A DNA stretch of 64,000 bases from Parapedobacter composti (GTDB lineage Bacteria > Bacteroidota > Bacteroidia > Sphingobacteriales > Sphingobacteriaceae), in assembly GCF_900112315.1 (NCBI RefSeq), contig NZ_FOLL01000001.1:434001-498000 (forward strand), written 5' to 3'. The position numbers were made by a program, and so were the translations under genes. The notes under the pieces are model-generated. The model was not told the origin of the DNA. It made no database searches and saw only the letters and a program-made list of their open reading frames with translations. How positions within the stretch are numbered: position 1 is the first letter of the stretch; each line of letters opens with the position of its first letter. This document shows positions 1 to 16,178 of this stretch, piece by piece.

Positions 1-1686
1 GGACATGCAGACAACGGCGGACTCCGTGGGGAGAAAGGCACGATATGGGAAGGCGGGATACGGGTGCCCGCGATGGTCATGTGGAACGATGGGATTAGCG
101 GTGATAAGGTGGTAGATGTCCCTGTATGCAATATTGATTTGCTTCCTACATTGGCAAATTTAACCGGTTTCCAAGAACATATAGAATTTAACCGTATAGA
201 CGGGATAGCTATTAGCGATGTGCTGTTCGGAAGCCTTGAAATGCCAGAGAGACCATTGTATTGGAGGTATCGGAAACAAACGGCCTTGCGGCAAGGTGAT
301 TGGAAGCTAGTTAATGGCAAGGAATTATATAACCTAAGGTCAGATCGGGCAGAAGCGTCTGATTTAGCGACAGTTTACCCCGAAAAGGTCTCGGAACTGC
401 GGGCACGTTTCAAGCAAATTGAAGGCCGATTTACGCAGGGCAGTACGGAGTGTGACCGACGTAGTGCGGAAGACTATGAGGTTGTGGCAGGTGATGCGGC
501 TTGGTGTTGGTTTTCTGATCCCCGGGCCATATATCACAAAGGCAGCCGCGAGCAGATTTTCTATGGTTACGTCAATAGTAAGGGCGATGTGGTCATCGGT
601 GCAAGAGACCTATCTACCAAGACAGTGGAAACCTTTGTATTGCACGAGCGATTACAGGTAGACGACCATAACGTTCCTGCTATCCTGGCACTTTCTGATG
701 GGCATCTATTGGCGTTTTATACTGAGCACAACGGCCGTTTTTTCATGCGCAAAAGCAAAAGGCCAGGGGATATCAGCGCGTGGCATGAAGAGCGGGTCAT
801 TCCATTCGGTGGCTCCCGTATTACTTACGCCCATCCAGTGATGCTGTCTGGTGAAGGAAACCGTATCTATGTGTTTTGGAGGGGTAGCGATTGGCAGCAG
901 ACCTTTGCCTTCAGTGACGACGATGGGGATACGTGGAGCAGACCGCAAGTATTGCTGGCCAGCGAAGGTACACGGAATCGGCCCTATCTAAAGGTCAGTT
1001 CCGACGGACATAATAGGATCGATTTCATCTTTACGGATGGTCATCCGGGCGTAGAACCGACCAATTCTGTTTATCACATGTATTATGAACAGGGAGCTTT
1101 TTATCAGACAGACGGTAGCCGGATCAGTGACGTGGCGCAGTTGCCGCTTTCACGCAAAGCTATTGGCAAAGTATACGACGGTCGGGCAAGTGGTGTCAGA
1201 AGCTGGATAGCCGACGTAGCGTTGAATAGTCAGGGGAATCCGGTGGTATGTTACATGCGGTATCCTAAAGACACCGATCACCGGTACCATTATGCTTGGT
1301 GGGATGGTAAGCAATGGGTAGACGAAGAAATATGCAGGGCTGGAGGATGGATGCCGCGGGTAGCACCCAATGAACGAGTAAAGGAGCCCCATTATTCCGG
1401 TGGAATCGTTTTAGATCACAGTGATGCCAATCATGTTTACTTGTCACGCGAAGTAGGTGGGTGCTTTGAAATAGCGCATTACACGCGACAGGATACGGAG
1501 TGGCACAGCTGCCTTTTGACAGAGGGGTCGCTCACAGACAGTGTGCGTCCGTATGCGGTTAAAATGCCAACAGGCCAGCCTCCGGTTGTTCTATGGATGA
1601 CGGGCCATTACAGCCATTACACCGAGTTCGACACAGAGCTGCGAATCAACGCGGTTAAGGTAAACAAGAAAAGGGAGCAAGAATGA
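1..1686 (+). CDS. Sulfatase-BNR_4 propeller fusion (5' end missing)
   Basis: The frame is open from base 1, so the N-terminus and the catalytic formylglycine site lie outside the window. The first in-window residues (GHADNGGLRGEKGT, then EGGIRVP) are the classic sulfatase segment before the last catalytic-domain strands. The sulfatase tail runs to about in-window residue 150, including the ALRQGDWKLV and ELYNLRSD blocks. From about residue 160 (DAAWCWFSDPRAIYH) to the end the protein is a BNR_4-type beta-propeller, the fold group that also holds PL24/PL25 ulvan lyases. I infer a periplasmic enzyme that desulfates and binds or cleaves a sulfated polysaccharide. The stop overlaps the next start (ATGA), so translation is coupled. 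Not certain: whether the propeller is a lyase or only a binding module. Confidence 0.8.
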   Translation, partial: GHADNGGLRGEKGTIWEGGIRVPAMVMWNDGISGDKVVDVPVCNIDLLPTLANLTGFQEHIEFNRIDGIAISDVLFGSLEMPERPLYWRYRKQTALRQGDWKLVNGKELYNLRSDRAEASDLATVYPEKVSELRARFKQIEGRFTQGSTECDRRSAEDYEVVAGDAAWCWFSDPRAIYHKGSREQIFYGYVNSKGDVVIGARDLSTKTVETFVLHERLQVDDHNVPAILALSDGHLLAFYTEHNGRFFMRKSKRPGDISAWHEERVIPFGGSRITYAHPVMLSGEGNRIYVFWRGSDWQQTFAFSDDDGDTWSRPQVLLASEGTRNRPYLKVSSDGHNRIDFIFTDGHPGVEPTNSVYHMYYEQGAFYQTDGSRISDVAQLPLSRKAIGKVYDGRASGVRSWIADVALNSQGNPVVCYMRYPKDTDHRYHYAWWDGKQWVDEEICRAGGWMPRVAPNERVKEPHYSGGIVLDHSDANHVYLSREVGGCFEIAHYTRQDTEWHSCLLTEGSLTDSVRPYAVKMPTGQPPVVLWMTGHYSHYTEFDTELRINAVKVNKKREQE

Positions 1687-4064
1687 CGAAGAACAACGGC
1701 CAAGGGCGTGATAAATGGAGCAGAAGGCATGTACTGACGACATTAGGGCTTACAGGGCTGGCCATGGCGCCTGGTATGCCAAAGGCAATTGAGAAATCGG
1801 ACAACGCCACTGTTATCACATGTGCAACGTTGGGGGAGCTAGCCAATTTGGAACTAAAACGGGGAATGGTTGTCCAAACTCTTGGGTATTTTCAGGCTGG
1901 TGATGGCGGTGCCGCGTGGTATCGCATTGAGGCGCAGGAAGGGAAGGGCGAAATGCAGGCGGGTATCGTACCGCTAACCAATGGGCTGATCGCTTTGCTG
2001 CTCCACAACCAAGCAGTCAACTACAAGATGTTTGGGGCCGTAGGCGATGGTGTACACGATGATGGTCTTGAAATCAAACGTACACACGAGTATGCCAACA
2101 AGCATAATATCCCAGTCATCAACCTGCGTGGTGAGTATTGGATCAAGGAAACAAACGGTATCGCAATTCGGACCAATGTGACATGGGGACATACCATTTT
2201 TCACATCGATGAGCAATTCAACGTCAAGGGAATCGGCAAGTTTGTGGTGCAAAGTACCAAAAAAAAGCAGGAGATAAGCTTTAACAATGAGCAAAAGGAG
2301 AAATTTCTGGAAGCGCTAAAGCCAGGGGTACGTCTTTTACCTCAATTAGCACCTTATAGCAATGCTTTGGTCAATATCCGGGACAATAATGACCGCATCG
2401 GTTTCCGGGCCGGAGCCAAGTTTAAGGGGCAGTCGTGGGCCCGGGAGGAACTGTTTTATGTGGAGGAACACGGCTGCGTGGTAGGAGATATTGCTTGGGA
2501 GTTTAAAGACTTTACCAGTTTGACGGTTTATCCATGTGACGATAATTACTTGGTTATCGATGGGGGCACGTTTTATCTTTCGGGCGATAGCCCGGGGACG
2601 GTGTACAACGGGTACAAGAGTAATGGCATTGTCGTAAACCGCAGCCGTACTATCATACGTAATCAGTGGGTCGGTCTGGAAGAAGGAAGACATGACGTAG
2701 CCATAACTCCTCGGACTGGTTTCTACACGTTTTCCATGGTATATGACGTAACGTTAGAAAATGTTCGACTAATCCCCTGGGAACAGAACCGCGAGGGAAC
2801 TGACCGGGATGTGCCGGCTGGAACGTACGGCATCAGTGCTGGCCGGATGTTGAATGGTACATTCAGGAACGTGACTGCAGAGGGCGGCCCGGTACATTGG
2901 GGCGTTTTCGGCACAAACTTGAATAAAAACTTCCGGATTGAACGGTGCAAGCTTAACCGGGTTGACGTACATTTTCATTGCTGGAACCTCTGTATCACCG
3001 ACTCTAATATCGGATACCGTGGTATATCCGTTACCGGAGGGGGCGAACTCCTAATCAAGCATACGGTCTGCCATAACCAATCGTTCGTCAATTTCCGTCG
3101 AGATTTCGGGTCGAAATGGGATGGGTGTATCCGGATAAGTAATTGCCGTTTCGTGCCACCCCCACTTGTAAGTAGCACCGTACTCAACTTCCATCCGCTC
3201 GATGCCGAATACCGTTATCCTATAAGTCTGGGACGGTCTATACGGGTGGAGGATCTAGTCATCGATTTGGGCCCGGATTCCTCATCACAGCGTCCCTGCT
3301 GGCTAGTCAATACGCCCGAGATGTCAAGGATGTCAAATGGCGATCACCTCATTTTCCCCAGGGAGCTTGTTTTTCGTAATGTATCCGTGGTAGGCAGCAA
3401 ACATGGGGTAAGGTTGATGAAGTTGTACAAGCCTCAACATTACCGTGTCGATTTACCGGGGGGATACAATGAGGTGCAGCTCCATACAAATGCGCAAATC
3501 AGATTTGAAAATATTCAATTGGAAATATTGAAGGGAACAGCTTGTAACACCGATGCTCATCTTACCGTGGTCCCTGATTACGAGCAGCCGTATGTACATG
3601 AATACGCGTTATATCCCAGTATCCATATTGTGGATTGTAAGGGGTTTCTGGGAGTATTGAAAGGAAGTGTTGCTGAAATCTTATTTAGTCGGTCATCTAT
3701 TATTAGTTTGGAATGTGGCGACACGGAGGCTATGCAGGGAAGTTTGTTTTTTCAAAATTGTGTTTTTCAGCCGGTGGCCGATACCGATACCGCTAAATTT
3801 TATACTCTCGAAGCATCTTTGGGTACCAGTTTTACGAATTGTGTGGTGCACGCCCCCGTTATAAGTGGCAGACGCAGGTATGATCTGTCAGATTGTTATG
3901 GGTTTCTAGCTATTAATGACTATGTGCTATACAACCACGTAAACACCCGACTTGGTCGGGATATCGTTAACCACTTGTTCGCGACTGGCGGCACCGTCCA
4001 CCCTGATTTTGTCGCAAAGCTCAAAAGTCACCACGAGCTCGAACCGTTCGGCGCTAAAAAATAG
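1683..4064 (+). CDS. Tat-exported pectate-lyase-like right-handed beta-helix protein
   Basis: 793 residues. The N-terminus carries a twin-arginine signal (SRRHVLTTLGLTGLAMA, residues 13-29), predicting export as a folded protein. At about residues 111-125 lies FGAVGDGVHDDGLEI, the hallmark opening of the Pectate_lyase_3 superfamily (compare FGAVGDGVTDDT). The remainder is rich in repeated beta-strand rungs with many Asn/Gly turns, as expected for a right-handed parallel beta-helix. Such proteins are polysaccharide lyases or glycoside hydrolases acting on acidic glycans; the exact activity cannot be read from sequence. The start ATG overlaps the stop of the sulfatase fusion, and the transporter gene follows after 6 bases, so it belongs to the same operon. 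Catalytic residues were not identified. Confidence 0.8.
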   Translation: MTKNNGQGRDKWSRRHVLTTLGLTGLAMAPGMPKAIEKSDNATVITCATLGELANLELKRGMVVQTLGYFQAGDGGAAWYRIEAQEGKGEMQAGIVPLTNGLIALLLHNQAVNYKMFGAVGDGVHDDGLEIKRTHEYANKHNIPVINLRGEYWIKETNGIAIRTNVTWGHTIFHIDEQFNVKGIGKFVVQSTKKKQEISFNNEQKEKFLEALKPGVRLLPQLAPYSNALVNIRDNNDRIGFRAGAKFKGQSWAREELFYVEEHGCVVGDIAWEFKDFTSLTVYPCDDNYLVIDGGTFYLSGDSPGTVYNGYKSNGIVVNRSRTIIRNQWVGLEEGRHDVAITPRTGFYTFSMVYDVTLENVRLIPWEQNREGTDRDVPAGTYGISAGRMLNGTFRNVTAEGGPVHWGVFGTNLNKNFRIERCKLNRVDVHFHCWNLCITDSNIGYRGISVTGGGELLIKHTVCHNQSFVNFRRDFGSKWDGCIRISNCRFVPPPLVSSTVLNFHPLDAEYRYPISLGRSIRVEDLVIDLGPDSSSQRPCWLVNTPEMSRMSNGDHLIFPRELVFRNVSVVGSKHGVRLMKLYKPQHYRVDLPGGYNEVQLHTNAQIRFENIQLEILKGTACNTDAHLTVVPDYEQPYVHEYALYPSIHIVDCKGFLGVLKGSVAEILFSRSSIISLECGDTEAMQGSLFFQNCVFQPVADTDTAKFYTLEASLGTSFTNCVVHAPVISGRRRYDLSDCYGFLAINDYVLYNHVNTRLGRDIVNHLFATGGTVHPDFVAKLKSHHELEPFGAKK

Positions 4065-4070
4065 GTAAAC

Positions 4071-5288
4071 ATGGAACGTATCGATGCTAAGATGCTTAAG
4101 GACGGATTTGTGGCGTTAGGGCCCGGTATTGTCACAGCGGCCATTGTCTTTGGTCCCAGCAAAATTACCATTACGTCCAAGATGGGTGCAGTTTATGGTT
4201 ACAACCTGTTGTGGGTGATTGGGGTGGCGATTTTCTTTATGATGGTTTTTTCAGCAATGGCTTCGCGAATCGGTTTTGCCGTAAACCAATCGCTGTTGAC
4301 CACCATTCGTTTGCGGTTCGGCCGCTGGGCAGGAGCGTGTATCGGCATAGGAATTTTCCTGGTTTGTGTATCCTTCCAGGCTGGTAACGCAACTGGATTA
4401 GGCATCGCATTGGGAGAAAGTACCGATAGCGCTACTACACTTTGGATTATATTGTTCAATGTCGTGGGCATAGCTTTGCTGTTTTTCCAAGACTTTTATA
4501 AGGTACTCGAGCGGTTGATGATTGTTATCGTTGTGCTGATGCTATTCTCTTTCTTAACTACTATGTTCCTCGCCAAACCGGCTATTAGGAATATTTTGCT
4601 TGGGCTTATTCCGGGCATGCCAAAGGGGTCATTGGGATTATCTATTGCATTTTTCGCTTCATGCTTTTCGGTAGTTGGTGCTTTCTATCAATCTTATCTT
4701 ACCCAAGAACGGAAACGGAAAATGCAGGGCTTAATGCTTAATGAAAGCAAGGGTACGTTGGGCATAGGCATATTAGGAGTCATGAGTGCGGTGGTGTTGA
4801 TCTGTGCAGCTGCAGTATTGGAGCCGAGGGGGGGAGGAGTAAGTAATGCATCAGACATGGCTATAGCCTTGGAGCCGCTTTTTGGTCGCTATGCAGCCCA
4901 ATTATTTTTGGTCGGGTTGTTCGGCGCATCTTTTTCATCGTTGATTGGCAATGCTACCGTAGGGGGGGCAATGCTTGCGGATGGCCTCGGACTGGGAAGT
5001 GCGCTCAGTTCCGGCTGGGTAAAGTGCTTTATCGCATTGGTAATGGTAGTGGGAAGCGGAGTCGCGCTGGCGTTCAGGAAGCCACCGCTTGAAGTAATCG
5101 TTTTCGCCCAAAGTATCACCATTTTTTTGGTGCCTTTCATCGGTTCGGTGATGTGGATTATTTCAAACGACAAAGAGGAAATGGGGATTTATGTGAGTCC
5201 GCCGATTACTAAATATGCTGGGCTAATAGGCTTGATCTTATTGGTTATACTAGCGGGATATAATGTGAATGAATTACTTATTAAATAA
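4071..5288 (+). CDS. Nramp-fold transporter lacking metal-binding motifs
   Basis: 405 residues with about eleven hydrophobic segments and the overall pattern of the Nramp/MntH (LeuT-fold) family: GPGIVTAA opens helix 1 as in canonical Nramps. The DPGN metal-binding motif is replaced by FGPSKIT (residues 27-33), and the helix-6 MPH motif is replaced around residues 203-208 (GAFYQS). Both the Asp/Asn and the Met ligands that coordinate Mn2+/Fe2+ are therefore gone. I infer that it carries something other than a divalent metal; its place between a lyase-like gene and sugar-acid enzymes suggests an organic acid or oligosaccharide product. Family membership is fairly secure, substrate unknown. It overlaps the longest version of the next gene. 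Confidence 0.78.
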   Translation: MERIDAKMLKDGFVALGPGIVTAAIVFGPSKITITSKMGAVYGYNLLWVIGVAIFFMMVFSAMASRIGFAVNQSLLTTIRLRFGRWAGACIGIGIFLVCVSFQAGNATGLGIALGESTDSATTLWIILFNVVGIALLFFQDFYKVLERLMIVIVVLMLFSFLTTMFLAKPAIRNILLGLIPGMPKGSLGLSIAFFASCFSVVGAFYQSYLTQERKRKMQGLMLNESKGTLGIGILGVMSAVVLICAAAVLEPRGGGVSNASDMAIALEPLFGRYAAQLFLVGLFGASFSSLIGNATVGGAMLADGLGLGSALSSGWVKCFIALVMVVGSGVALAFRKPPLEVIVFAQSITIFLVPFIGSVMWIISNDKEEMGIYVSPPITKYAGLIGLILLVILAGYNVNELLIK

Positions 5289-5292
5289 TCAC

Positions 5293-6306
5293 ATGCAGTT
5301 GAAACTATTGGAAAATAAATTGCTGGAACCTTCAGATGCGCTAATTTCCGATATGGCAAGCATCACCGGTGACATCATGCTATTGGGCGCGGGGGGGAAG
5401 ATGGGGCCATCCATGGCCAAACTCGCAAAACGTTCGATAGAACAAGCTGGGGTTCGGAAGCGTGTTATAGCGGTATCTCGGTTTAGTGAGGATAGCGCCC
5501 GCCGGGACTTACAGCTATCGGGGATCGAAACCATCGCGGCCGATTTATTGGACGAGGCGGCATTGAATGCGTTGCCTGACACAGATAACGTTGTTTATCT
5601 GGCGGGGCAGAAATTTGGTACTACTGGCAGGGAGCCATTTACATGGGCGATGAATACCTACCTTTCAGGCAGGGTGGCCGAGCGGTTCCGTGACTCACGG
5701 ATCGTTGTTTTTTCAACCGGCAATGTCTATCCCTTCGCCCGTTTATTGGAGGGGGGGCTAGCAGAAAACCACCCCGCCGAACCGATAGGAGAGTACGGGC
5801 AGTCATGCCTCGGCCGTGAACGCATTTTCCAGCATTTTTCGCAGCAGAATGGTACTCCGATACTAATTTACCGACTCAATTATGCGATAGACTTGCGTTA
5901 TGGTGTATTGCTGGAGTTGGCTAAATCCGTGCTGCACAGTATTCCCATCGATTTGTCTGTGGGTCATGTGAACGTGATTTGGCAAGGCGATGCCAATGAA
6001 ATGGCTATACGGTCATTGCTTCATTGCACGTCGCCTGCCACCATATTGAACGTGACCGGCCCCGAAACGATTTCCGTAAGGTGGTTGGCGCACCAGTTTG
6101 GAAAGCTATTTCAAAAGGAGCCCCTGTTTGTCAACGAAGAGCAACCCTCTGCTTTACTAAGCAATGCAGCAGAGGCGCACAAACGATTCGGATATCCGCG
6201 CGTGACATTGATGGAAATGATAGAAATGACTGCATCGTGGCTAACATTGGGTGGTGAACAAATCGATAAACCCACTCATTTTCAAGAAAGGAAAGGAAGG
6301 TTTTAA
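5293..6306 (+). CDS. Extended SDR (NAD-dependent epimerase/dehydratase) with altered active site
   Basis: An NAD(P)-binding GAGGKMG motif opens the Rossmann domain (residues 40-46 counted from an upstream ATG at 5269; subtract 8 for the start chosen here). This is an extended short-chain dehydrogenase of the epimerase/dehydratase type. The Ser of STGNVY is present, and a Tyr follows in EYGQSC, but the YxxxK lysine is a Cys (Y176/C180 in the long numbering), so normal proton relay is doubtful. The start at 5293 is preferred because it avoids a 20-base overlap with the transporter gene and leaves a short leader typical of this subfamily; 5269 remains possible. Neighbours (aldolase, oxidoreductases) suggest sugar-acid or uronate metabolism in the cytoplasm. 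Substrate unknown. Confidence 0.75.
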   Translation: MQLKLLENKLLEPSDALISDMASITGDIMLLGAGGKMGPSMAKLAKRSIEQAGVRKRVIAVSRFSEDSARRDLQLSGIETIAADLLDEAALNALPDTDNVVYLAGQKFGTTGREPFTWAMNTYLSGRVAERFRDSRIVVFSTGNVYPFARLLEGGLAENHPAEPIGEYGQSCLGRERIFQHFSQQNGTPILIYRLNYAIDLRYGVLLELAKSVLHSIPIDLSVGHVNVIWQGDANEMAIRSLLHCTSPATILNVTGPETISVRWLAHQFGKLFQKEPLFVNEEQPSALLSNAAEAHKRFGYPRVTLMEMIEMTASWLTLGGEQIDKPTHFQERKGRF

Positions 6307-6312
6307 AAACGC

Positions 6313-7374
6313 ATGGACATATTCGCATTAACTCCGCGCAAGTACGAAATATTGCAACAGGGGGTGGTCATCCCGGCCCATCCCTTAGCGCTGAATGCCA
6401 AATATAGGCTGGACGAGCAAAGGCAACGGCTGCTTACCCGCTACTATATGGCTGCTGGGGCGGGAGGTATTGCTGTAGGTGTACATAGTACGCAGTTTGC
6501 TATCCGGGAACCGCAGGTAAACCTATTTGAACGTGTTTTACGGTTAGCTGCCGAGGAGGTAGACCGTACGCCACAGGCTGATCGATTTCTCAAAATTGCC
6601 GGAATTTGCGGAGAAACGGTACAAGCTATTGACGAGGCGGAACTTGCCCGAAACCTTGGGTATGATATGGGACTGCTTAGCATGGGTGGATTGACGGGTT
6701 GGAGCGAAACGCAACTACTGGAGCGTACGGCTGAGGTGGCACAGCGGATTCCAGTATTCGGCTTTTATCTTCAGCCCAGTGTGGGCGGCAGGATTTTATC
6801 ATACGATTTTTGGTCACGGTTTGTGGAAATCCCTAACGTTATAGCGATAAAGGTGGCGGCGTTCAACCGGTATCAGACCTTGGATGTGATAAGGGCAGTA
6901 TGCTCGGCAAGTAGGGGGCGAAATATAGCACTTTATACAGGAAACGACGATAATATAGTAGCAGATTTACTGACTGACTTTACCTTTGAGGTGCACGGCG
7001 GCCGCACGGTCACCCGGCACTTCGTGGGAGGATTACTGGGGCATTGGGCGGTTTGGACACGCAGTGCTGTACGTCTATTGGAGGAAATCAAAGCTTGTCG
7101 AGCAGCCGGGTTTCAGGGAGCCAGGCAATTATTAAAGAAGGGGGTTCATTTAACCGATATGAATGCCGCGATTTTCGACCCAGCCAATGGCTTCCATGGA
7201 TGTATCCCGGGCATCCATGAAGTGCTAAAAAGGCAGGGATTGCTGGAAGGCATATGGTGCCTTGATCCAAATGAAACGTTATCGCCAGGTCAAAGTGACG
7301 AGATCACCCGTGTATGTAAAAATTATCCGGAACTTATAGACGATGAGTTCGTTAATGATTTCTTGCGTGGATGA
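6313..7374 (+). CDS. Dihydrodipicolinate synthase (DapA)-family aldolase/lyase
   Basis: 353 residues, a class I aldolase TIM barrel of the DapA/NanA/KDG-aldolase superfamily. The Schiff-base lysine is K180 in NVIAIKVAA, and the conserved active-site Tyr is Y152 in FYLQPSVGG. It is longer than typical DapA (about 290-300 residues), with an extended C-terminus. Members of this group cleave or dehydrate 2-keto-3-deoxy sugar acids or N-acetylneuraminate, or make dihydrodipicolinate. Inside a polysaccharide locus and directly after an epimerase-type gene (6 bases apart), a catabolic role on a 2-keto-3-deoxy-aldonate from uronic acids is the likelier job. It is the last gene of the first transcription unit: about 200 non-coding bases follow. 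Confidence 0.8.
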   Translation: MDIFALTPRKYEILQQGVVIPAHPLALNAKYRLDEQRQRLLTRYYMAAGAGGIAVGVHSTQFAIREPQVNLFERVLRLAAEEVDRTPQADRFLKIAGICGETVQAIDEAELARNLGYDMGLLSMGGLTGWSETQLLERTAEVAQRIPVFGFYLQPSVGGRILSYDFWSRFVEIPNVIAIKVAAFNRYQTLDVIRAVCSASRGRNIALYTGNDDNIVADLLTDFTFEVHGGRTVTRHFVGGLLGHWAVWTRSAVRLLEEIKACRAAGFQGARQLLKKGVHLTDMNAAIFDPANGFHGCIPGIHEVLKRQGLLEGIWCLDPNETLSPGQSDEITRVCKNYPELIDDEFVNDFLRG

Positions 7375-7546: not shown

Positions 7547-7571
7547 ATTCGGTAGTTGATAATTGTTGGCT

Positions 7572-8582
7572 ATGGATATATTAAACACAAGAAGAGAATT
7601 TTTGAAAGATTTCGCCGCATTAGGCGTTGGTTTATCGTTTTCTGCACTGCCGATGATAGGCAGAGCCCAAGCTGTGCCTGTGGGCAAACGGGTTGGAATA
7701 ATCGGATTGGATACTTCCCATAGTATAGCGTTTAGCAAAGCGCTCAATGCCACCAATGCTGATCCGGGGTTAAAAGGCTATAAGGTGATAGCGGCCTATC
7801 CTTATGGAAGCCGGACGATAGCGAGCAGCGTAAAGCGTATTCCAGGGTATATAGACGAAATGAAAGGCTTGGGCGTGCGCATTGTAGATTCCATTGCGGA
7901 ATTGTTGGAACAGGTTGATGTTGTGTTATTGGAAACCAATGATGGTCGGCTGCATCTAGAACAGGCATTGCCGGTGTTTAAAGCCGGTAAACGTTTGTTC
8001 ATAGACAAGCCGATTGCCGCCTCATTGGCCGATGCGAAGGCTATTTTTGAGGCATCGGAAACGTATGGCGTTCCGACGTTCTCATCATCATCCTTACGCT
8101 ACGTAGAGAACATTCCCGATCTTAAATCAGGCAAGCTTATCGGAAACATTACCGGTGTCGATGCATTTGCTCCAGCCACATTGGAACCGTCACATCCCGA
8201 CCTGTTTTGGTACGGCATACATGGCATTGAGATTTTATATGCGGTATTGGGAACCGGTTGCCAAGAGGTCCGGCGGATATATGGCGCCGAAACAGATATC
8301 GTGGTAGGCACCTGGGCGGACGGTCGTGTAGGCGTTTTCCGGGGGCTAAGGAGCGGGAAAAACGGGTATGGAGGGATGGCCTACGGAGAAAAAGGACAGG
8401 CCGTTATCGGGAAATATTCCGGGTATCTTCCTTTGCTTTACCATATTGTTGAGTATTTTGATACAGGCGTAGTGCCTATAAGTCCTGCCGAAACATTAGA
8501 ATTGGTGGCTTTTATGGAGGCCGCCGATTTGAGCAAGCGTAAGGGGGGTGGACCCATCAATGTACAAAAACTATTAAGTTAA
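7572..8582 (+). CDS. Tat-exported Gfo/Idh/MocA-family oxidoreductase (GLDTSHS type)
   Basis: 336 residues from the ATG at 7572; an upstream TTG at 7563 in the same frame is less likely. The N-terminus has a twin-arginine-like signal (TRREFLKDFAALGVGLSF). After it comes a Rossmann domain whose nucleotide loop reads GIIGLDTSHS (about residues 42-51) instead of the usual GxGxxG. The DKP motif (residues 145-147) matches the EKP lysine motif of the family. These enzymes oxidise or epimerise sugars with NAD(P); an exported one would need tightly bound cofactor. A perfect palindrome lies 25 bases upstream, and it starts a three-gene unit with the next oxidoreductase and an esterase. Substrate unknown; a C3 oxidation role is one option given the DUF1080 domain further on. 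Confidence 0.8.
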   Translation: MDILNTRREFLKDFAALGVGLSFSALPMIGRAQAVPVGKRVGIIGLDTSHSIAFSKALNATNADPGLKGYKVIAAYPYGSRTIASSVKRIPGYIDEMKGLGVRIVDSIAELLEQVDVVLLETNDGRLHLEQALPVFKAGKRLFIDKPIAASLADAKAIFEASETYGVPTFSSSSLRYVENIPDLKSGKLIGNITGVDAFAPATLEPSHPDLFWYGIHGIEILYAVLGTGCQEVRRIYGAETDIVVGTWADGRVGVFRGLRSGKNGYGGMAYGEKGQAVIGKYSGYLPLLYHIVEYFDTGVVPISPAETLELVAFMEAADLSKRKGGGPINVQKLLS

Positions 8583-8592
8583 GTCGGTTGGC

Positions 8593-9777
8593 ATGGATAG
8601 GAGATTTTTTTTAAAAAGCAGCGCATATGGATTGGCGGGGCTTACGATGGTCGATCGACCGGTCGGGCATATATTGGCTAACCAAAGACGTCCATTGGCT
8701 GTCGGCATCGTCGGATTTGGTAGTCGGGGTTCCGGTATTGCCAGTATTATCCGAACCGTGCCAGGTATAGCGCTCCATGCATATAGCGATATTCTGGAGA
8801 ACCAATTGCAGTTAGCCGGCAGGCAATTCACTGAAGCTAAAGCGTATCCTGATTACCGGAAATTGCTGGAAAATCCCGCTATTGAAGCGGTTATAATTGC
8901 GTTACCCGAGCATCTGCATTATCCGGCAGCTGTGGCAGCGTTACAGGCAGGAAAGCATGTCTATCTCGAAAAAACGATGGTACACACCATGGAGGAGGCC
9001 GAACAGCTCGTGCAGACAGCTGCACGTTATCCCAAGCAGGTATTACAGATAGGCCATCAATACCGTTATTACCAATTATACCATAGGGTGTTAGAAGTAA
9101 TCCGTGAAGGTTTCATCGGCGACGTAACGCAATATGAATGTCAGTATCACCGTAATTCAGATTGGCGACGGCCGGTATCAGACCCGAAACTGGAAAGACA
9201 GATAAATTGGCGGATGTACAAAGAATACTCCGGTGGATTGATGACGGAGCTTTGCGCACATCAAGTCGACATCCTCAACTGGTTTAATGGAAGCCCGCCA
9301 GCGTCTGTGGTCGCTATTGGGGGCATTGATTACTGGAAGGATGGCCGTGAGACTTACGATAATATACGCGCCATATATGCCTATCCAAACGGGGTAAAGG
9401 CCAGTGTAAGTTCCATCCTTAGCAACGCATACAATGGCTATTCTATACGGATACTGGGCAGTAAGGGGACGATAGTGGTCCAGCGCACCAAAGCACTGGC
9501 TTATCCTGAACAGGTAAAAGCCCACTTAACCACTGTTGACGGCGTAACCGGCGCGACAGCGGAATCCTGGGGGCAAGGGAAACCCATGGAGTTAAAGTTT
9601 AGCAACCAAGACGGTCAAAACCGCGATCCCACGGCCTATGCACTGATGGATTTTGTCTCTTGCATAGGCGAGGGCAGAAAACCATTTTCCAATGTAGAAA
9701 CCGGAAAAGATACGGCACGGGCAGTACTACTAGCTAATAAAGCTGCGGAGCAAGGGACCATGCAGTATTTGATTTGA
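8593..9777 (+). CDS. Exported Gfo/Idh/MocA-family oxidoreductase (EKT variant)
   Basis: 394 residues. The N-terminus (MDRRFFLKSSAYGLAGLTMV) has two arginines followed by a hydrophobic stretch, a Tat-type signal. The Rossmann loop is GFGSRG (residues 41-46). The family's EKP motif appears as EKT (residues 126-128), so the usual Pro is lost while the catalytic-site Lys is kept. A downstream ELCAHQVD block provides the expected active-site His. Members act as NAD-dependent sugar dehydrogenases; some hydrolyse glycosides by an oxidation-elimination route (GH109, GH177/GH179-like). It lies 10 bases after the first oxidoreductase, so the two are co-transcribed. I infer a periplasmic sugar-oxidising or glycoside-cleaving role; the exact reaction is not readable. 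Confidence 0.8.
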   Translation: MDRRFFLKSSAYGLAGLTMVDRPVGHILANQRRPLAVGIVGFGSRGSGIASIIRTVPGIALHAYSDILENQLQLAGRQFTEAKAYPDYRKLLENPAIEAVIIALPEHLHYPAAVAALQAGKHVYLEKTMVHTMEEAEQLVQTAARYPKQVLQIGHQYRYYQLYHRVLEVIREGFIGDVTQYECQYHRNSDWRRPVSDPKLERQINWRMYKEYSGGLMTELCAHQVDILNWFNGSPPASVVAIGGIDYWKDGRETYDNIRAIYAYPNGVKASVSSILSNAYNGYSIRILGSKGTIVVQRTKALAYPEQVKAHLTTVDGVTGATAESWGQGKPMELKFSNQDGQNRDPTAYALMDFVSCIGEGRKPFSNVETGKDTARAVLLANKAAEQGTMQYLI

Positions 9778-9794
9778 TTTGCCGGGTACCAATT

Positions 9795-10967
9795 ATGAAA
9801 ATTACGCGATTTCCTAAGCTACTACTATTTTTATGTTGCCTATGCATTAGCAATGCTGTAACCAAGAAAGCATGGCCTAAAGGAAATGGACCGGATAGCT
9901 GTTTGAGTATAGACATTATGCCGTTTTTCAAACCGCCTGATTCATTGGCAGAGCGGTTCGGCGACTTTCGGTCTCCATTGCAGTTTTATAGCGGTGCATG
10001 GGTGAAAGATGCTGCGGACTGGAAACGGCGAAGGACGGAAATTCTTCATCGTTGGTCTAGCTTGATGGGACAGTGGCCGCCTTTGTTAGAGGGTCAGCAT
10101 TTAAGAATCGATTCATCAGTACAACGAACTGGCTATGTACAACATCAAATACGGTTCAAGTGGATGCCTAACGAGTGGACAGACGGTTATTTACTTGTTC
10201 CTGATGACCAAACAGCGCAGAAGCGTCCGGCCGTTCTCGTCGTATATTATGAGCCGGAGACCGCGATTGGCATGAGCGATAAACCCCAACGCGATTTCGC
10301 ACGGCAATTGGTTAAGTCAGGTTTTGTTACGCTATCCATCGGTACAAGAGCCGCGTCACAGCGCCGCGAGTTTTCATTGTATTACCCTTCGATAGCGCAT
10401 GCAGAAGTGCAGCCGTTGTCCATGTTGGCCTATGCCGCTGCTAATGCTTGGCACGTATTGGCTAATGTTTCGCAAGTCGATTCTACAAGGGTTGGAATCA
10501 TGGGACACTCATTTGGTGGTAAATGGGCTATGTTTGCTTCCTGCCTGTTTGACAAGTTTGCCTGTGCGGTATGGTCGGATCCCGGAGTGGTTTTCGATGA
10601 GACTAAAGGGTCAGCAGTAAATTATTGGGAACCGTGGTATTTGGGATATTACCCGCCACCATGGCGAAATGTTTGGCGTAGGCACGGCAACGTTGAAAAC
10701 GCCCAGGGACTTTATCCCGGTCTTATTGCAAAAGGCTTTAACTTGCATGAACTGCACGCACTTATGGCACCCCGGCCATTTTTGGTGTCGGGTGGCGAAG
10801 CCGATCCGGTAGAGCGATGGATTCCGCTCAACCATACCCGGAAAGTTAACCAGCTACTTGGTTATGAAGACCGTGTGGCAATGACCAACAGGGCTACGCA
10901 TACTCCTGATGAAAAATCCAATCGCCAAGCCATCGCTTTTTTTAATCGATTTTTAGGCCAAAAATAG
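9795..10967 (+). CDS. Secreted alpha/beta-hydrolase (esterase-like)
   Basis: 390 residues from the ATG at 9795; in-frame TTG at 9774 overlaps the previous gene and is not needed. A hydrophobic signal peptide (LLLFLCCLCISNAV) starts the protein. The nucleophile elbow is GHSFGG with S239; H369 in RATHTPDEKS is the likely catalytic His and D337 in GGEADPV the likely acid. The architecture is that of dienelactone-hydrolase/acetyl-xylan-esterase-like enzymes, so it probably removes acyl groups from the polysaccharide or its fragments in the periplasm. It ends the three-gene unit before the SusC promoter region. CE family assignment was not possible by eye. Confidence 0.72.
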   Translation: MKITRFPKLLLFLCCLCISNAVTKKAWPKGNGPDSCLSIDIMPFFKPPDSLAERFGDFRSPLQFYSGAWVKDAADWKRRRTEILHRWSSLMGQWPPLLEGQHLRIDSSVQRTGYVQHQIRFKWMPNEWTDGYLLVPDDQTAQKRPAVLVVYYEPETAIGMSDKPQRDFARQLVKSGFVTLSIGTRAASQRREFSLYYPSIAHAEVQPLSMLAYAAANAWHVLANVSQVDSTRVGIMGHSFGGKWAMFASCLFDKFACAVWSDPGVVFDETKGSAVNYWEPWYLGYYPPPWRNVWRRHGNVENAQGLYPGLIAKGFNLHELHALMAPRPFLVSGGEADPVERWIPLNHTRKVNQLLGYEDRVAMTNRATHTPDEKSNRQAIAFFNRFLGQK

Positions 10968-11065: not shown

Positions 11066-14000
11066 ATGATAATTATGTTTTACCAAAAAAGTATCCGCGG
11101 CCGGATGCATAGGATTCGTCCGGCTGTGGGTAAACACCACGTGGCCATGGTGTTTGTGGCTGCTCTACTGTTGGCCCTGAGCGACCGTATAACTGCGCGG
11201 GAGAACGACGGTCGGAGAATAGCTCCTGCCCAAATTGAAGTACATGGGCAGGTGGTCGATTCCACTAATACGCCCTTGTCGGGCGCTACCGTTATGCTGA
11301 AAGGGACGAATGTAGGTACGCAGACCAACAATGAAGGACGGTTTTATTTCCCAAGCTTGGAAAGTAATGCTGTGCTTGTCGTCACCTATACCGGATTCTT
11401 GACCCAGGAGATATCAGTGCAGGGGCGAAACGAGTTGACCGTCGTACTGAAACAAGATCCGGCGAGTTTAGAGGAAGTGGTAGTTGTCGCTTTCGGCACG
11501 CAAAAGCGGACGGATATGGTGGGTTCGATAACCACAGTGAAGCCTAGTAACCTACGGGTGCCATCAAGCAACCTTACTACTGCGTTGGCTGGGCAGGCAG
11601 CGGGTATAATTGCTTATCAGCGAAGTGGAGAACCCGGGATGGATAATGCAGATTTCTTTATCCGTGGCGTAACGTCATTTGGTACAGGAAAAGTTGATCC
11701 ACTGATCCTCATCGATGGAGTAGAGCTCAGTGTTACCGAATTGGCTCGGTTACGACCGGATGATATTGAAAGTTTTTCCATCATGAAGGATGCAACGTCT
11801 ACGGCATTATATGGTGCTAGGGGCGCAAACGGCGTCATCTTTGTGACAACTAAGCAAGGAAAAGAAGGGAGAGCTTCTATATCGTTCCGGGCGGAAAGCT
11901 CGCTGTCAATGCCTACTAGCAATGTAGAACTCGCCGATCCGGTGACTTTCATGAAACTGTATAACGAGGCATTGGTCGCGCGCAATCCGTTTGAGGAACC
12001 ATTATATACGCAGGAAAAGATAGATGCAACGAGCGAAGGCACGCACCCGATTATTTTCCCGGCGACTGATTGGCGAAAAGCGTTATTCAAGGACTATACA
12101 CTTAACCATCGCTACAACCTCAACGTCAGCGGCGGTGGCAAGGTTGCTCGTTATTATGTAGCCGGTTCGTTGGCACAAGACAACGGAGTGCTGAAGGTAG
12201 ACCCCGTAAATAACTTCAATAATAACATCGATTTGAAGAGTTATACGTTAAGGGCAAATGTCAACATCGACTTGACCAATTCAACAGAGTTGATTGTGCG
12301 GCTGAATGGCAATTTTGATGACTATACTGGGCCGATTGAAGGGGGAGCAGACCTTTATAATAAGGTTATCCGTACCAACCCAGTCGACTTTGTGCCTTAC
12401 TATCCCATAGATGACGAACATAGTCATGTCAAGCATATTATGTTCGGAGGTGTTTCTGATCGGTCTTTTTTAAATCCCTACGCCGATATGGTAAGAGGTT
12501 ATAAAGACTATACACGCTCGCTGATGATGGCCCAGATGGAACTGAAACAAGACCTTTCGTTTTTGACCAAAGGATTGAGCTTTCGTTCTATGTTTAACAC
12601 CAACCGTGTATCACGATTTGATATAGAACGATCGTACAACCCATTTTTTTATGAGTTGAATTTTTTCGATCGGCGGTCTGGAGCATATTCGATTTATTCG
12701 TTTAACGAATCGAGTGGGACGGAGTTTCTAAGTTTTAACCTCGACAACGAATTGCGGCAGCAAACCTCAACCTTTTATATGGAGTCCGCATTAAATTATA
12801 ACCGAGAGTTAGGAGACAAGCACACGTTAAGCGGACTATTGGTTTACCTCATGCGGTCGAATATGAGTGCACAGGCCAATAGCCTACAATTGTCGTTGCC
12901 GTCGCGTAATGTGGGACTTTCCGGTCGGGCTACATACGCCTATGACAACCGGTATTTCTTGGAATTCAATTTCGGCTACAATGGCTCCGAGCGTTTCCAT
13001 ACTAGCAAACGCTGGGGGTTCTTCCCCTCAGCAGGGGTTGCTTGGAGTGTCTCCAATGAAAAATTTTGGGAGCCGCTTAAAGAACAAATCAATAATTTCC
13101 GCTTGCGGGCCACTTACGGCCTTGTAGGCAATGACGCTATAGGATCGACTTCAGATCGGTTCTTCTATCTCTCCGAAGTGAGCATGAATTCAAGCGCTCG
13201 TGGTTTTACATTTGGACGGGAAAGCAATTATTCTACCAACGGTGTAAATATCAGCCGGTATGCAAATCCGGATATTACTTGGGAAACTTCTCACAAAACC
13301 AATTTGGCTGTTGAACTCGGGTTGTTCAATAAGGTGAACATTATGGCGGATTTCTTCTCGGAAATCCGCACCAATATCCTCATGGATCGGGCCGATATCC
13401 CATCGACCATGGGATTAACGGCAGATGTAAGGGCCAACGTAGGCGAAGCGTCGGGAAAAGGGATGGACATATCCGTGGATTACTCACATAGCTTTTCCAA
13501 TCAAATGTGGTTACAAGCACGAGGCAATTTCACTTACGCGACAAGTAGGTTCCGTGTCTATGAGGAACCGCTATATGACCGTGAATGGTGGAAATCGAAA
13601 ATAGGACATCCCATTAGTCAACAATGGGGATATATCGCGGAACGCCTATTTGTTGACGATAATGAGGTTGCAAATTCTCCGGCGCAAAACTTCGGTACAC
13701 CCAATATCGCTGGCGATATAAAATATAAAGATATAAATGGAGATGGCATGATTACAGAACTTGATCAGGTACCTATCGGTTTTCCGACCACGCCGGAAAT
13801 CATTTACGGCATCGGTTTTTCAGTTGGGTGGAAGTCATTGGATCTTTCCGCGTTTTTTCAAGGGTCAGCATATTCCTCGTTCTGGGTGTCGCCAAGTAGT
13901 GTGCAACCTTTTGTAGGAGGTAAGCAGATATTGAAGGCTTTTGCAGACGATCATTATTCGTTGGAAAACCCAGATATCTATGCGCTTTGGCCAAGGCTAA

Positions 14001-14269
14001 GTGTTAATAACCATGCGAACAATACACAGCGGAGTACATGGTGGTTGCATGATGGGGCATTTCTTCGCCTGAAACAGACGGAACTAGGGTATTCCTTGCC
14101 TCAATCGTTATCTAAACGGTTGCGTATGAGTACCTTTCGTTTTTACTTGAGCGGAACAAATTTGTTGACGCTGAGCAGTTTCAAACTATGGGATGTTGAA
14201 ATGGGCGGTAATGGATTAGGTTATCCCGTTCAGAAAGTATTTAACCTTGGCCTAAATGTTACTTTTTAA
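11066..14269 (+). CDS. SusC/RagA-family TonB-linked outer membrane transporter
   Basis: 1067 residues. After a signal peptide (hydrophobic stretch about residues 27-42) comes a carboxypeptidase-like regulatory domain (EVHGQVVDSTNTPLSGATVMLKG and onward). Then follow the TonB box and plug entry (SLEEVVVVAFGTQKRTDMVGSI), the plug with FIRGVTSFGTG and DPLILIDGVEL, and the STALYGARGANGVIFVTTKQGK block typical of SusC. The rest is a 22-strand barrel ending in an aromatic residue (NVTF). It imports oligosaccharides through the outer membrane with the adjacent SusD. The length is typical. An in-frame ATG at 11075 is an alternative start. An operator-like element precedes it, so it probably begins its own transcript. 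Confidence 0.95.
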   Translation: MIIMFYQKSIRGRMHRIRPAVGKHHVAMVFVAALLLALSDRITARENDGRRIAPAQIEVHGQVVDSTNTPLSGATVMLKGTNVGTQTNNEGRFYFPSLESNAVLVVTYTGFLTQEISVQGRNELTVVLKQDPASLEEVVVVAFGTQKRTDMVGSITTVKPSNLRVPSSNLTTALAGQAAGIIAYQRSGEPGMDNADFFIRGVTSFGTGKVDPLILIDGVELSVTELARLRPDDIESFSIMKDATSTALYGARGANGVIFVTTKQGKEGRASISFRAESSLSMPTSNVELADPVTFMKLYNEALVARNPFEEPLYTQEKIDATSEGTHPIIFPATDWRKALFKDYTLNHRYNLNVSGGGKVARYYVAGSLAQDNGVLKVDPVNNFNNNIDLKSYTLRANVNIDLTNSTELIVRLNGNFDDYTGPIEGGADLYNKVIRTNPVDFVPYYPIDDEHSHVKHIMFGGVSDRSFLNPYADMVRGYKDYTRSLMMAQMELKQDLSFLTKGLSFRSMFNTNRVSRFDIERSYNPFFYELNFFDRRSGAYSIYSFNESSGTEFLSFNLDNELRQQTSTFYMESALNYNRELGDKHTLSGLLVYLMRSNMSAQANSLQLSLPSRNVGLSGRATYAYDNRYFLEFNFGYNGSERFHTSKRWGFFPSAGVAWSVSNEKFWEPLKEQINNFRLRATYGLVGNDAIGSTSDRFFYLSEVSMNSSARGFTFGRESNYSTNGVNISRYANPDITWETSHKTNLAVELGLFNKVNIMADFFSEIRTNILMDRADIPSTMGLTADVRANVGEASGKGMDISVDYSHSFSNQMWLQARGNFTYATSRFRVYEEPLYDREWWKSKIGHPISQQWGYIAERLFVDDNEVANSPAQNFGTPNIAGDIKYKDINGDGMITELDQVPIGFPTTPEIIYGIGFSVGWKSLDLSAFFQGSAYSSFWVSPSSVQPFVGGKQILKAFADDHYSLENPDIYALWPRLSVNNHANNTQRSTWWLHDGAFLRLKQTELGYSLPQSLSKRLRMSTFRFYLSGTNLLTLSSFKLWDVEMGGNGLGYPVQKVFNLGLNVTF

Positions 14270-14279
14270 TTAGCGAATC

Positions 14280-16178
14280 ATGAAATTTAATAAGTTGAAA
14301 GGCATCGCACTGATTGGGGTATTAGTAATGACCAGTTGTAATCGATTTATCGACGTGGTGCCAGATAATGTGCCCACACTGGAATATGCGTTCCGCATGA
14401 GGAGTACAGCGATTGGATATCTTGCCACATGCTATTCTTTTTTGCCCAGCCTCGGAAACTATCAAACTAATCCCGGCCTATTGGGGGGAGATGAAATGTG
14501 GGCCACAGATAATAGGGAATGGCCGAATTTTATGATAGCAAGAGGCGAACAGAATATTAATAATCCGTACTTAGATTCCTGGAATGGGGCAAACTCTGCC
14601 ACGGCTATGTGGATGGGTATTAGCCAATGCAATATTTTCTTGGAGCATATTTCAAGCGTTCCAGACATGGAAAAATCCGAGATAGATCAGTGGATAGCAG
14701 AAGTCAAGACGCTCAAGGCATACTACCATTTCTATTTGTTAAGGACGTATGGCCCTATCCCGATTATGAGAGAAAATTTGCCGATTTCGGCTTCCGGGGA
14801 TGAGGTTCGTGTGGTTCGGCGTCCCGTTGACGAGGTGTTTGCGTATATCGTTGAATTGCTGGATGAGGCTATCGTGCATTTACCCGACAACGTATTGGAC
14901 GAAAATTCAGAGATGGGCCGGATTACCTTACCCATAGCAATGGGTTTGAAAGCAAAGGTGTTGGTCTATGCCGCAAGCCCGTTATTCAATGGCAACACGG
15001 ACTATTCCAATTTTACAAATAAGGACCAAACCCCATTGTTTGATCAAACATATCGTCCTGAAAAATGGGAGCGCGCAGTCATTGCGTTGAAAGAAGCTAT
15101 CGAATATGCGCACATATTAGGGTATGAATTACATGAGTTCCAGCCTAATTTTCAGGCTCGAAACATTTCAGATACCACCAAGCTTCAAATGAATTACCGT
15201 GGTACGGTAACCGAGCGGTGGAATCCTGAAATCCTTTGGGCCAACACAAACAGCACGACTCGAAATCTACAACTAGCAATGACCCCGAGGGCATTGAATT
15301 CCAGTATGGTAGATTATCAGTTGCCCTATGGCACTGTTGGCGTCACACTTAAAGTAGCTAGCCTTTTCTATACAAGTAACGGAGTGCCTATCGAAGAAGA
15401 TCTTACATGGAATTATAATGATCGATTCCAATTGAAAACGGCAACGGAAAACGAAAAATACAAAATAAAAGAAGGTTACGTTACAGCACGGTTCAACTTC
15501 GATCGAGAGTCGCGATTTTATGGCGGGTTGGGTTTTGACGGCGGGATTTGGTACGGACACGGTAGGTTTGATGATAACGATACGTATTGGTATGAAGGAA
15601 AGGTGGGCCAGTATGGAGGTAAAGTAGGGATTGGCTTCCACTCGGTGACGGGTTATTATGCCAAGAAATTATCAAATTACGCCAACACACCCGTTAACCG
15701 TAATAGTTATACGACCACCAATTACCCTTGGGTGATGCTGAGGTTGGGCGACCTGTATCTGTTATATGCGGAAGCGTACAACGAGTTGTATGGTCCCGAA
15801 GAGGAAGCCTATCATTATTTGAATCTGATCCGAGCCAAGGCCGGCCTTCCAACAGTGCAGGAAGCTTGGACAAATTTTTCCATTAATCCCAATAAATATA
15901 CTACGAAAGAAGGGCTTCGCGAGATTATTCATCAGGAACGTGCAATCGAACTAGCGATGGAAGGAGAGCGGTTTTGGGATTTGCGACGCTGGAAAACAGC
16001 CCCCGTCGAGTTGAATGGTCCGATTTCTGGCTGGGATGTAGACCAAGAGACTGCAGGCGGATACTATCGCGAACGGATTATCTTTCATCAATCTTTTGCA
16101 TTAAAAGATTATTTCTGGCCCTTGAGAGAAAGAGATTTAATTGTCAACAAAAATCTGGTTCAAAACCCAGGTTGGTAA
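14280..16178 (+). CDS. SusD/RagB-family surface glycan-binding lipoprotein
   Basis: 632 residues. The lipobox is MTSC with C20 as the lipidated residue. The body has the TPR-like helical features of the SusD_RagB families: an early YLATCYSF segment, KAYYHFYLLRTYGPIPI at about residues 148-164, and the typical C-terminal block RAIELAMEGERFWDLRRWKTA near residue 560, followed by YFWPLRERDL. It lies 10 bases after the SusC gene and should cap that transporter at the cell surface. The binding face cannot be deduced from sequence, so glycan specificity is open. Confidence 0.95.
   Translation: MKFNKLKGIALIGVLVMTSCNRFIDVVPDNVPTLEYAFRMRSTAIGYLATCYSFLPSLGNYQTNPGLLGGDEMWATDNREWPNFMIARGEQNINNPYLDSWNGANSATAMWMGISQCNIFLEHISSVPDMEKSEIDQWIAEVKTLKAYYHFYLLRTYGPIPIMRENLPISASGDEVRVVRRPVDEVFAYIVELLDEAIVHLPDNVLDENSEMGRITLPIAMGLKAKVLVYAASPLFNGNTDYSNFTNKDQTPLFDQTYRPEKWERAVIALKEAIEYAHILGYELHEFQPNFQARNISDTTKLQMNYRGTVTERWNPEILWANTNSTTRNLQLAMTPRALNSSMVDYQLPYGTVGVTLKVASLFYTSNGVPIEEDLTWNYNDRFQLKTATENEKYKIKEGYVTARFNFDRESRFYGGLGFDGGIWYGHGRFDDNDTYWYEGKVGQYGGKVGIGFHSVTGYYAKKLSNYANTPVNRNSYTTTNYPWVMLRLGDLYLLYAEAYNELYGPEEEAYHYLNLIRAKAGLPTVQEAWTNFSINPNKYTTKEGLREIIHQERAIELAMEGERFWDLRRWKTAPVELNGPISGWDVDQETAGGYYRERIIFHQSFALKDYFWPLRERDLIVNKNLVQNPGW

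Follow-up and report, generated by a model that had tools for sequence, protein, structure and literature searches.

A lysine in place of metal ligands: an Nramp-related membrane protein of Bacteroidota that probably imports organic acids

Introduction

What does a protein of the Nramp fold carry when its metal ligands are missing and its gene lies among glycan genes? Nramp is the textbook metal transporter family, and relatives devoid of its motifs receive the metal-transporter label by default. The window analysed here (a stretch of 64,000 nucleotides from Parapedobacter composti) encodes such a relative, whose subfamily, with its FGPSK motif, invariant lysine and sugar-acid enzymes, offers a concrete case for deciding whether the Nramp fold carries organic acids.

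Nramp-related proteins without the TM1 and TM6 metal motifs and the proton path are an acknowledged group, described as diverse, paraphyletic and basal (PMC12873925; PMC4072509). The first-pass annotation of this DNA called non-metal substrates of Nramp relatives hardly described, which overlooks a precedent: PxpT of Corynebacterium glutamicum, an Nramp family member, is needed for growth on 5-oxoproline, as seen by deletion and complementation, although its authors left metal transport possible (PMC13274462) and its homologue YcsG is claimed to import Mn (PMC10448178). Our literature search, which covered mostly open-access papers, found nothing relevant that ties sugar acids, galactonate, PQQ dehydrogenase or DapA-type genes to Nramp-fold proteins. 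The FGPSK subfamily bears both on the dispute over YcsG, PxpT and MumT and on the question of metal transport as a derived state.

Results

The protein has the Nramp fold

The transporter gene has an intact reading frame with an ATG start, and its product matches PF01566 (Nramp) at 6.7e-61, far above the curated cut-off (207 bits against 29.8). It also scores above the cut-off of the NCBIfam 'Nramp_1' model and far below that of the Mn-specific MntH model, and NCBIfam treats it as an equivalog of 'Nramp family divalent metal transporter', with 80 bits against a cut-off of 50. The top solved relatives by sequence are the Mg2+ carrier EleNRMT (4.7e-18) and DraNramp.

An AlphaFold2 model built from 20 natural sequences (mean pLDDT 78, a moderate confidence; pTM 0.78) has TM1 broken at residues 27-28 and TM6 at 199-200. 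In VIA-align its superposition on EleNRMT scores Z 47.4 (385 residues, rmsd 2.5 A), that on DraNramp Z 47.0 (381 residues, 2.2 A) and that on a model of YcsG Z 43.5; other APC families come next, at Z ~31. Both profile and fold place the protein in the Nramp/SLC11 superfamily (LeuT/APC fold), as the first-pass annotation had read from the sequence. It has no companion over the Pfam cut-off in its own genome: two further matches (C20 and C39) are weak and below it, and the ORFs of the C20 stretch include no convincing Nramp gene.

Metal and proton residues are replaced by an invariant set

Residues were mapped by alignment with DraNramp. In TM1, D56, P57, G58 and N59 of that protein correspond to G28, P29, S30 and K31, and in TM6, A227, M230, P231 and H232 correspond to S197, S200, V201 and V202. 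The proton-path residues have been exchanged as well, both in TM3 (D131 to Q103, E134 to N106) and in TM9 (R352 to I321, R353 to A322), and E124 is F96. Where canonical Nramps (clades A-C) have DPGN and (A/C)xxMPH, this protein has GPSK and SCFSVV, and Q103, N106, I321 and A322 stand in for the proton path of canonical clades A and C. The only DraNramp site residue kept is the TM10 glutamine (Q378, here Q347), which is conserved in nearly all groups examined. The central site contains no acidic residue and has gained a lysine.

We then aligned the protein with 19 homologues of 53-63% identity, from Parapedobacter, Lacibacter, Flagellimonas, Allomuricauda, Dyadobacter, Sphingobacterium, Echinicola, Pedobacter, Niabella and other Bacteroidota. 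FGPSK is kept in all 20 sequences, and S30, K31, the TM6 motif ASCFS, Q103, N106, N294 and Q347 are all invariant (20/20). As K31 and ASCFS are present in one further genome (G300) too, the change of the site cannot be put down to sequencing noise, and the strictness with which the new residues are kept in the 20 sequences makes a decayed metal transporter unlikely. The replacement of DPGN and the absence of metal ligands from TM1 and TM6, both claimed from the letters alone, hold in the alignment with DraNramp. MPH is likewise absent from TM6 (S200-V201-V202), but to call it lost is another matter: the ligands of the FGPSK clade were probably never present, because relatives lacking DPGN and MPH are a known basal group and the nearest relatives have GPG[S/N].

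A glycan-directed locus

Table 1. Features of the transporter gene and its neighbourhood in the window
Feature	Positions	Strand	Evidence and remarks
C-terminal part of a ~900-aa sulfatase + BNR_4 fusion, starting ~1.0 kb before the window	1..1686	+	
793-aa secreted-looking protein, no family match, weak tail-spike (beta-helix) similarity	1683..4064	+	directly upstream of transporter
Nramp-related transporter, 405 aa (proposed organic-acid importer)	4071..5288	+	PF01566, 207 bits; AF2 model; VIA-align
TM1 break motif FGPSK (residues 27-31), replaces xDPGN; K31 at DraNramp N59 position	4149..4163	+	invariant 20/20; alignment; model break 27-28
TM3 Q103..N106 at DraNramp proton-path D131/E134	4377..4388	+	alignment
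TM6 break SCFSVV (residues 197-202), replaces ATVMPH	4659..4676	+	alignment; model break 199-200
TM10 Q347, equivalent to DraNramp Q378	5109..5111	+	alignment
SDR/epimerase-fold oxidoreductase	5269..6306	+	PF01370; overlaps transporter gene by 20 nt
DapA-type class I aldolase/dehydratase; Schiff-base Lys (AIKxAxFNRYQT), Tyr (GFYLQ)	6313..7374	+	weak PF00701; alignment; weak PDB DHDPS
Gfo/Idh-type oxidoreductase, Tat-like signal	7563..8582	+	PF01408
Second Gfo/Idh/MocA oxidoreductase	8593..9777	+	
Alpha/beta hydrolase (esterase-like)	9774..10967	+	
SusC-type TonB-dependent receptor	11066..14269	+	
SusD-type lipoprotein	14280..16178	+	PF07980

With its SusC/SusD pair, sulfatase + BNR_4 fusion and esterases, the window locus does look glycan-directed (Table 1), in keeping with the first-pass annotation. 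Its DapA-type neighbour also stands, the Schiff-base lysine and the tyrosine being conserved even if the Pfam score is slightly under the cut-off. The supposed lyase-like neighbour fared less well: the 793-aa protein was considered as a polysaccharide lyase and set aside, since it has no Pfam or NCBIfam match and only a weak tail-spike one. Elsewhere in the window, positions 24048-25538 encode a fusion protein that joins a SASA-type acetylesterase to a 3-keto-disaccharide hydrolase domain. There are no pxp genes beside the window transporter.

The SDR is not an ordinary YxxxK enzyme. In its active site this motif is replaced by an invariant Y-x-Q-S-C, with cysteine for the catalytic lysine in 19/19 aligned sequences, and its nearest solved relative is the TerB oxidoreductase, at 26 bits only. 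This Cys-for-Lys SDR (the window protein and 18 homologues) is a widespread partner of DapA-type genes across several phyla.

A conserved operon in Bacteroidota

Neighbouring ORFs were clustered across 23 full loci (the window, L005-L023, and those of genomes G300, G162 and G158). The SDR gene lies directly downstream of the Nramp-like gene in 19 of the 23, in at least four Bacteroidota families; the DapA-type gene is mostly next after it, and a protein of ~510 aa is encoded directly upstream in 13 of those loci. This last combines a PQQ glucose/sorbosone-type dehydrogenase (PF07995) with cytochrome c (PF00034) at its C-terminus. In its usual form the operon runs from the gene for this periplasmic sugar dehydrogenase through the Nramp-like and SDR genes to that for the DapA-type lyase. 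Most relatives' loci are flanked by SusC/SusD pairs, and in most of the conserved operons the Nramp-like protein is the only evident inner-membrane carrier. The window keeps the Nramp-SDR-DapA core and has the 793-aa and sulfatase-BNR_4 proteins where the dehydrogenase is usual; the best match to the dehydrogenase-cytochrome c protein in its genome has 32% identity, which is not a close orthologue.

The Nramp gene is solitary in four Flagellimonas/Allomuricauda-type genomes, in which the SDR and sugar dehydrogenase genes lie together ~18 kb off on the same contig. Both enzyme regions read include a Gfo/Idh gene like that at window positions 7563-8582 and a symporter gene that looks SSS-like by eye and whose product could instead be the importer there; a DapA-type gene is found in one of the two.

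A survey of 395 Bacteroidota genomes with profile A1 (E<=1e-60) places the transporter clade in five (G000, G158, G162, G300 and G171), and the SDR and DapA-type genes (E<=1e-100) occur together in exactly those five; a sixth, G014, has a distant SDR/DapA-type pair only (35-37% identity). Transporter and enzymes are on separate contigs in G171. Were genomes independent, the chance of this coincidence would be 1/C(395,5) = 1.3e-11, a figure that overstates the case because the genomes share ancestry and the genes are physically linked in four of them. The shared distribution is what one pathway predicts.

The enzyme pair has other carriers in other phyla

Relatives of the SDR and DapA-type proteins occur at ~50-65% identity in Bacillota, Actinomycetota and Alphaproteobacteria, and those of the SDR in haloarchaea as well. 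The pair is found without an adjacent Nramp gene in Paenibacillus and Streptomyces, where it accompanies an ABC carbohydrate system, and in Tistrella and Sulfitobacter, where it accompanies another ABC system. In Nitratireductor it accompanies genes for a TctAB tricarboxylate carrier, a mandelate racemase, a Gfo/Idh protein and a sugar isomerase, while in Halalkaliarchaeum the SDR (50%) is encoded three genes downstream of an Nramp-related gene. As ABC-sugar or tricarboxylate carriers stand beside the pair elsewhere, the Nramp gene appears to fill the slot of an organic-substrate importer.

Relationships among Nramp-related clades

In a quick maximum likelihood tree (SH-aLRT support only, YcsG and PxpT sequences left out), the FGPSK clade (99) groups with Bacteroidota FGPGS/LGPGS sequences (99), haloarchaeal VGPGS and Neorhizobium FGPGN sequences in one clade (100), separate from canonical Nramps, EleNRMT, a GPGT clade (96) and a GTGS clade (100). 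EleNRMT clusters with an Alicyclobacillus protein (97-98%), and the GPSK of the 405-aa protein is no DAGG-type motif, which sets it apart from NRMTs.

The haloarchaeal relatives adjoin Gfo/Idh, FAH hydrolase, heparinase, sulfatase, BNR-4 and IclR genes, and the Neorhizobium relative a DHDPS-family gene and a LacI-type regulator; these related forms widen the case beyond Bacteroidota. A DPGN-type member from Thioclava adjoins mntR. The GTGS-type gene L125:5861-9766 (G162, contig 55) heads an operon for DgoK (2-keto-3-deoxygalactonate kinase), KDPG aldolase and SMP-30 lactonase, and its product is the only evident carrier directly inside that sugar-acid operon. In the GPGT clade, which is separate from the FGPSK clade, a Bacteroidota member (L124:5954-9540; G089, contig 4) directly precedes pxpA, pxpB and pxpC and is likely a PxpT-type 5-oxoproline carrier.

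Two further observations concern these families. Haloarchaeal plasmids of three genera carry a CopG-Nramp-HyuA-HyuB arrangement of the hydantoinase/5-oxoprolinase type with a GPGT-clade Nramp protein (L070:7977-12805, L073:7989-12844, L089:3983-8844). In G171, a second, divergent Nramp-family protein (L063:9838-11562; 575 aa) is encoded two genes from a GPGS-type one, its Pfam match being limited to part of the C-terminal half.

Discussion

A probable importer of organic acids

The absence of metal-binding residues, together with the setting in sugar-acid gene sets of many unrelated microbes, suggests that the protein is probably an importer of organic acids. Judging from the comparison of sequences and gene contexts, we put at about 60% the probability that this Nramp-related (SLC11-outgroup) inner-membrane protein takes up an organic acid, in the likeliest case a sugar acid or its lactone. 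The anionic sugar-product importer proposed in the first-pass annotation has thereby gained strong comparative backing (operon, shared distribution, carrier replacement), transport itself being what we infer. The protein becomes a candidate inner-membrane carrier for a set of glycan loci.

The substrate would be an aldonate, a uronate-derived or keto-sugar acid, or a lactone, formed in the periplasm by glycan breakdown; gene neighbourhood points to a class of substrates rather than to one compound. In most relatives, the PQQ-dependent dehydrogenase with its cytochrome c domain would oxidise a sugar outside the inner membrane and the Nramp-fold protein would bring the oxidised product inside, where the SDR, the Gfo/Idh enzyme and the DapA-type Schiff-base lyase may convert the acid to pyruvate or another keto acid and an aldehyde. 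As the window's genome has no close dehydrogenase orthologue, the acid needs another source there. Within the protein, K31, which takes the position of the metal-coordinating Asn between the broken TM1 and TM6, could pair with the substrate carboxylate, and Q103, N106, S200, N294 and Q347 would be available to its hydroxyl groups. Since the canonical proton path is absent, the transporter may be a uniporter or be coupled to another ion.

What else could be carried

Import of a neutral oxidised sugar (a 3-keto-glycoside, a lactone or a free sugar), with K31 in a structural or gating role like that of the TM5 lysine of ApcT, is a rather unlikely alternative. It would fit the Gfo/Idh enzymes and the 3-keto-disaccharide hydrolase-like domain of the window's locus, as well as the ABC carbohydrate system that is the partner transporter in Paenibacillus and Streptomyces. 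The lysine is moreover not essential to the pathway as such, because the G158 and G162 relatives, with the same SDR and DapA genes, carry GPGS. The tricarboxylate-type carrier and mandelate racemase family gene of Nitratireductor nevertheless point to an acid, as does the chemistry of the enzymes: DapA-superfamily enzymes have 2-keto acids as substrates, and PQQ sugar dehydrogenases yield an aldonolactone or acid.

That the protein instead supplies the operon's catabolic enzymes with a divalent cation (Mg2+, Mn2+ or another) through a rebuilt site, as in EleNRMT, we regard as quite unlikely, even though a comparable role has been proposed for MumT (with urea carboxylase) and claimed for YcsG/MntG. 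No obvious Mn/Fe enzyme is known among the enzyme families of the operon; the slot is held in other phyla by sugar and acid carriers rather than metal carriers, and the transporter gene tracks the genome distribution of the enzymes. Deletion of mumT, which belongs to a urea-catabolic operon of Acinetobacter baumannii, does leave cells with less Mn, a deficit repaired by complementation (PMC5050338), and Bacillus subtilis YcsG, since renamed as an Mn importer (MntG), raises cell Mn when overexpressed (PMC10448178). EleNRMT of Eggerthella lenta, nearest among solved relatives in both sequence and fold, carries Mg2+ without much of the canonical site (PMC10115441), and in its own genome the window protein is the one Nramp to exceed the Pfam cut-off; yet the TM1 Asp (DAGG) and TM3 Glu of EleNRMT are both gone here, and a lysine sits at the metal-coordinating Asn.

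The Nramp-like domain of plant EIN2 is thought to be a non-transporting sensor or regulator, and a similar role in this locus, which the missing metal site and proton path might suggest, is very improbable for a protein of 405 aa that consists of the transporter domain only, has no signalling domain, keeps its polar site residues invariant and its TM1 and TM6 breaks preserved, and in most of these operons has no other evident inner-membrane carrier beside it.

Should organic-acid import be the right reading, it may extend further. We tentatively propose that several large Nramp-related clades (TM1 GPSK/GPGS, GTGS, GPGT) could be dedicated to the import of organic acids such as sugar acids and 5-oxoproline, that the Mn/Fe site might have arisen later from a carboxylate-binding ancestor near the APC amino-acid carriers, and that many 'divalent metal transporter' genes may be misnamed.

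Comparison with known systems

The 405-aa protein is a member of the Nramp superfamily that lies outside the canonical Nramps, the NRMTs and the pxp-type group. It shares with the canonical DraNramp and BfraNramp (clades A-C) the overall fold (Z 47 and 43.5) and the TM10 Gln, whereas the TM1/TM6 metal ligands and TM3/TM9 proton residues of canonical Nramp/MntH proteins are all replaced. EleNRMT, its closest solved relative (Z 47, 21-23% identity), resembles it in having the Nramp fold without canonical DPGN/MPH motifs or a proton path, but is a Mg2+ carrier that retains the TM1 Asp (DAGG) and TM3 Glu, where Gly, Asn and the invariant Lys are found here, and it belongs to a separate well-supported clade with another genome setting.

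PxpT and YcsG (TCDB 2.A.55) are likewise Nramp family members encoded with catabolic enzymes, and the organic-acid substrate of PxpT is backed genetically (PMC13274462). They differ from the window system in their enzymes and in the substrate proposed, and the pxpABC-linked member L124, with GPGT in TM1 and Y-N in TM6, falls in a separate clade.

The sugar-acid operons of the xynABC (yagEF-like) and DgoKA types differ from the window in that their carrier is of the MFS rather than the Nramp fold; the window SDR lacks the usual YxxxK lysine, and no IlvD-type dehydratase gene is seen adjacent. The xylonate operon, for instance, encodes an MFS carrier, a DapA-type aldolase and a dehydratase (PMC12445098). 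What such operons and the window have in common is the combination itself, a carrier encoded with a DapA-type aldolase and a further enzyme.
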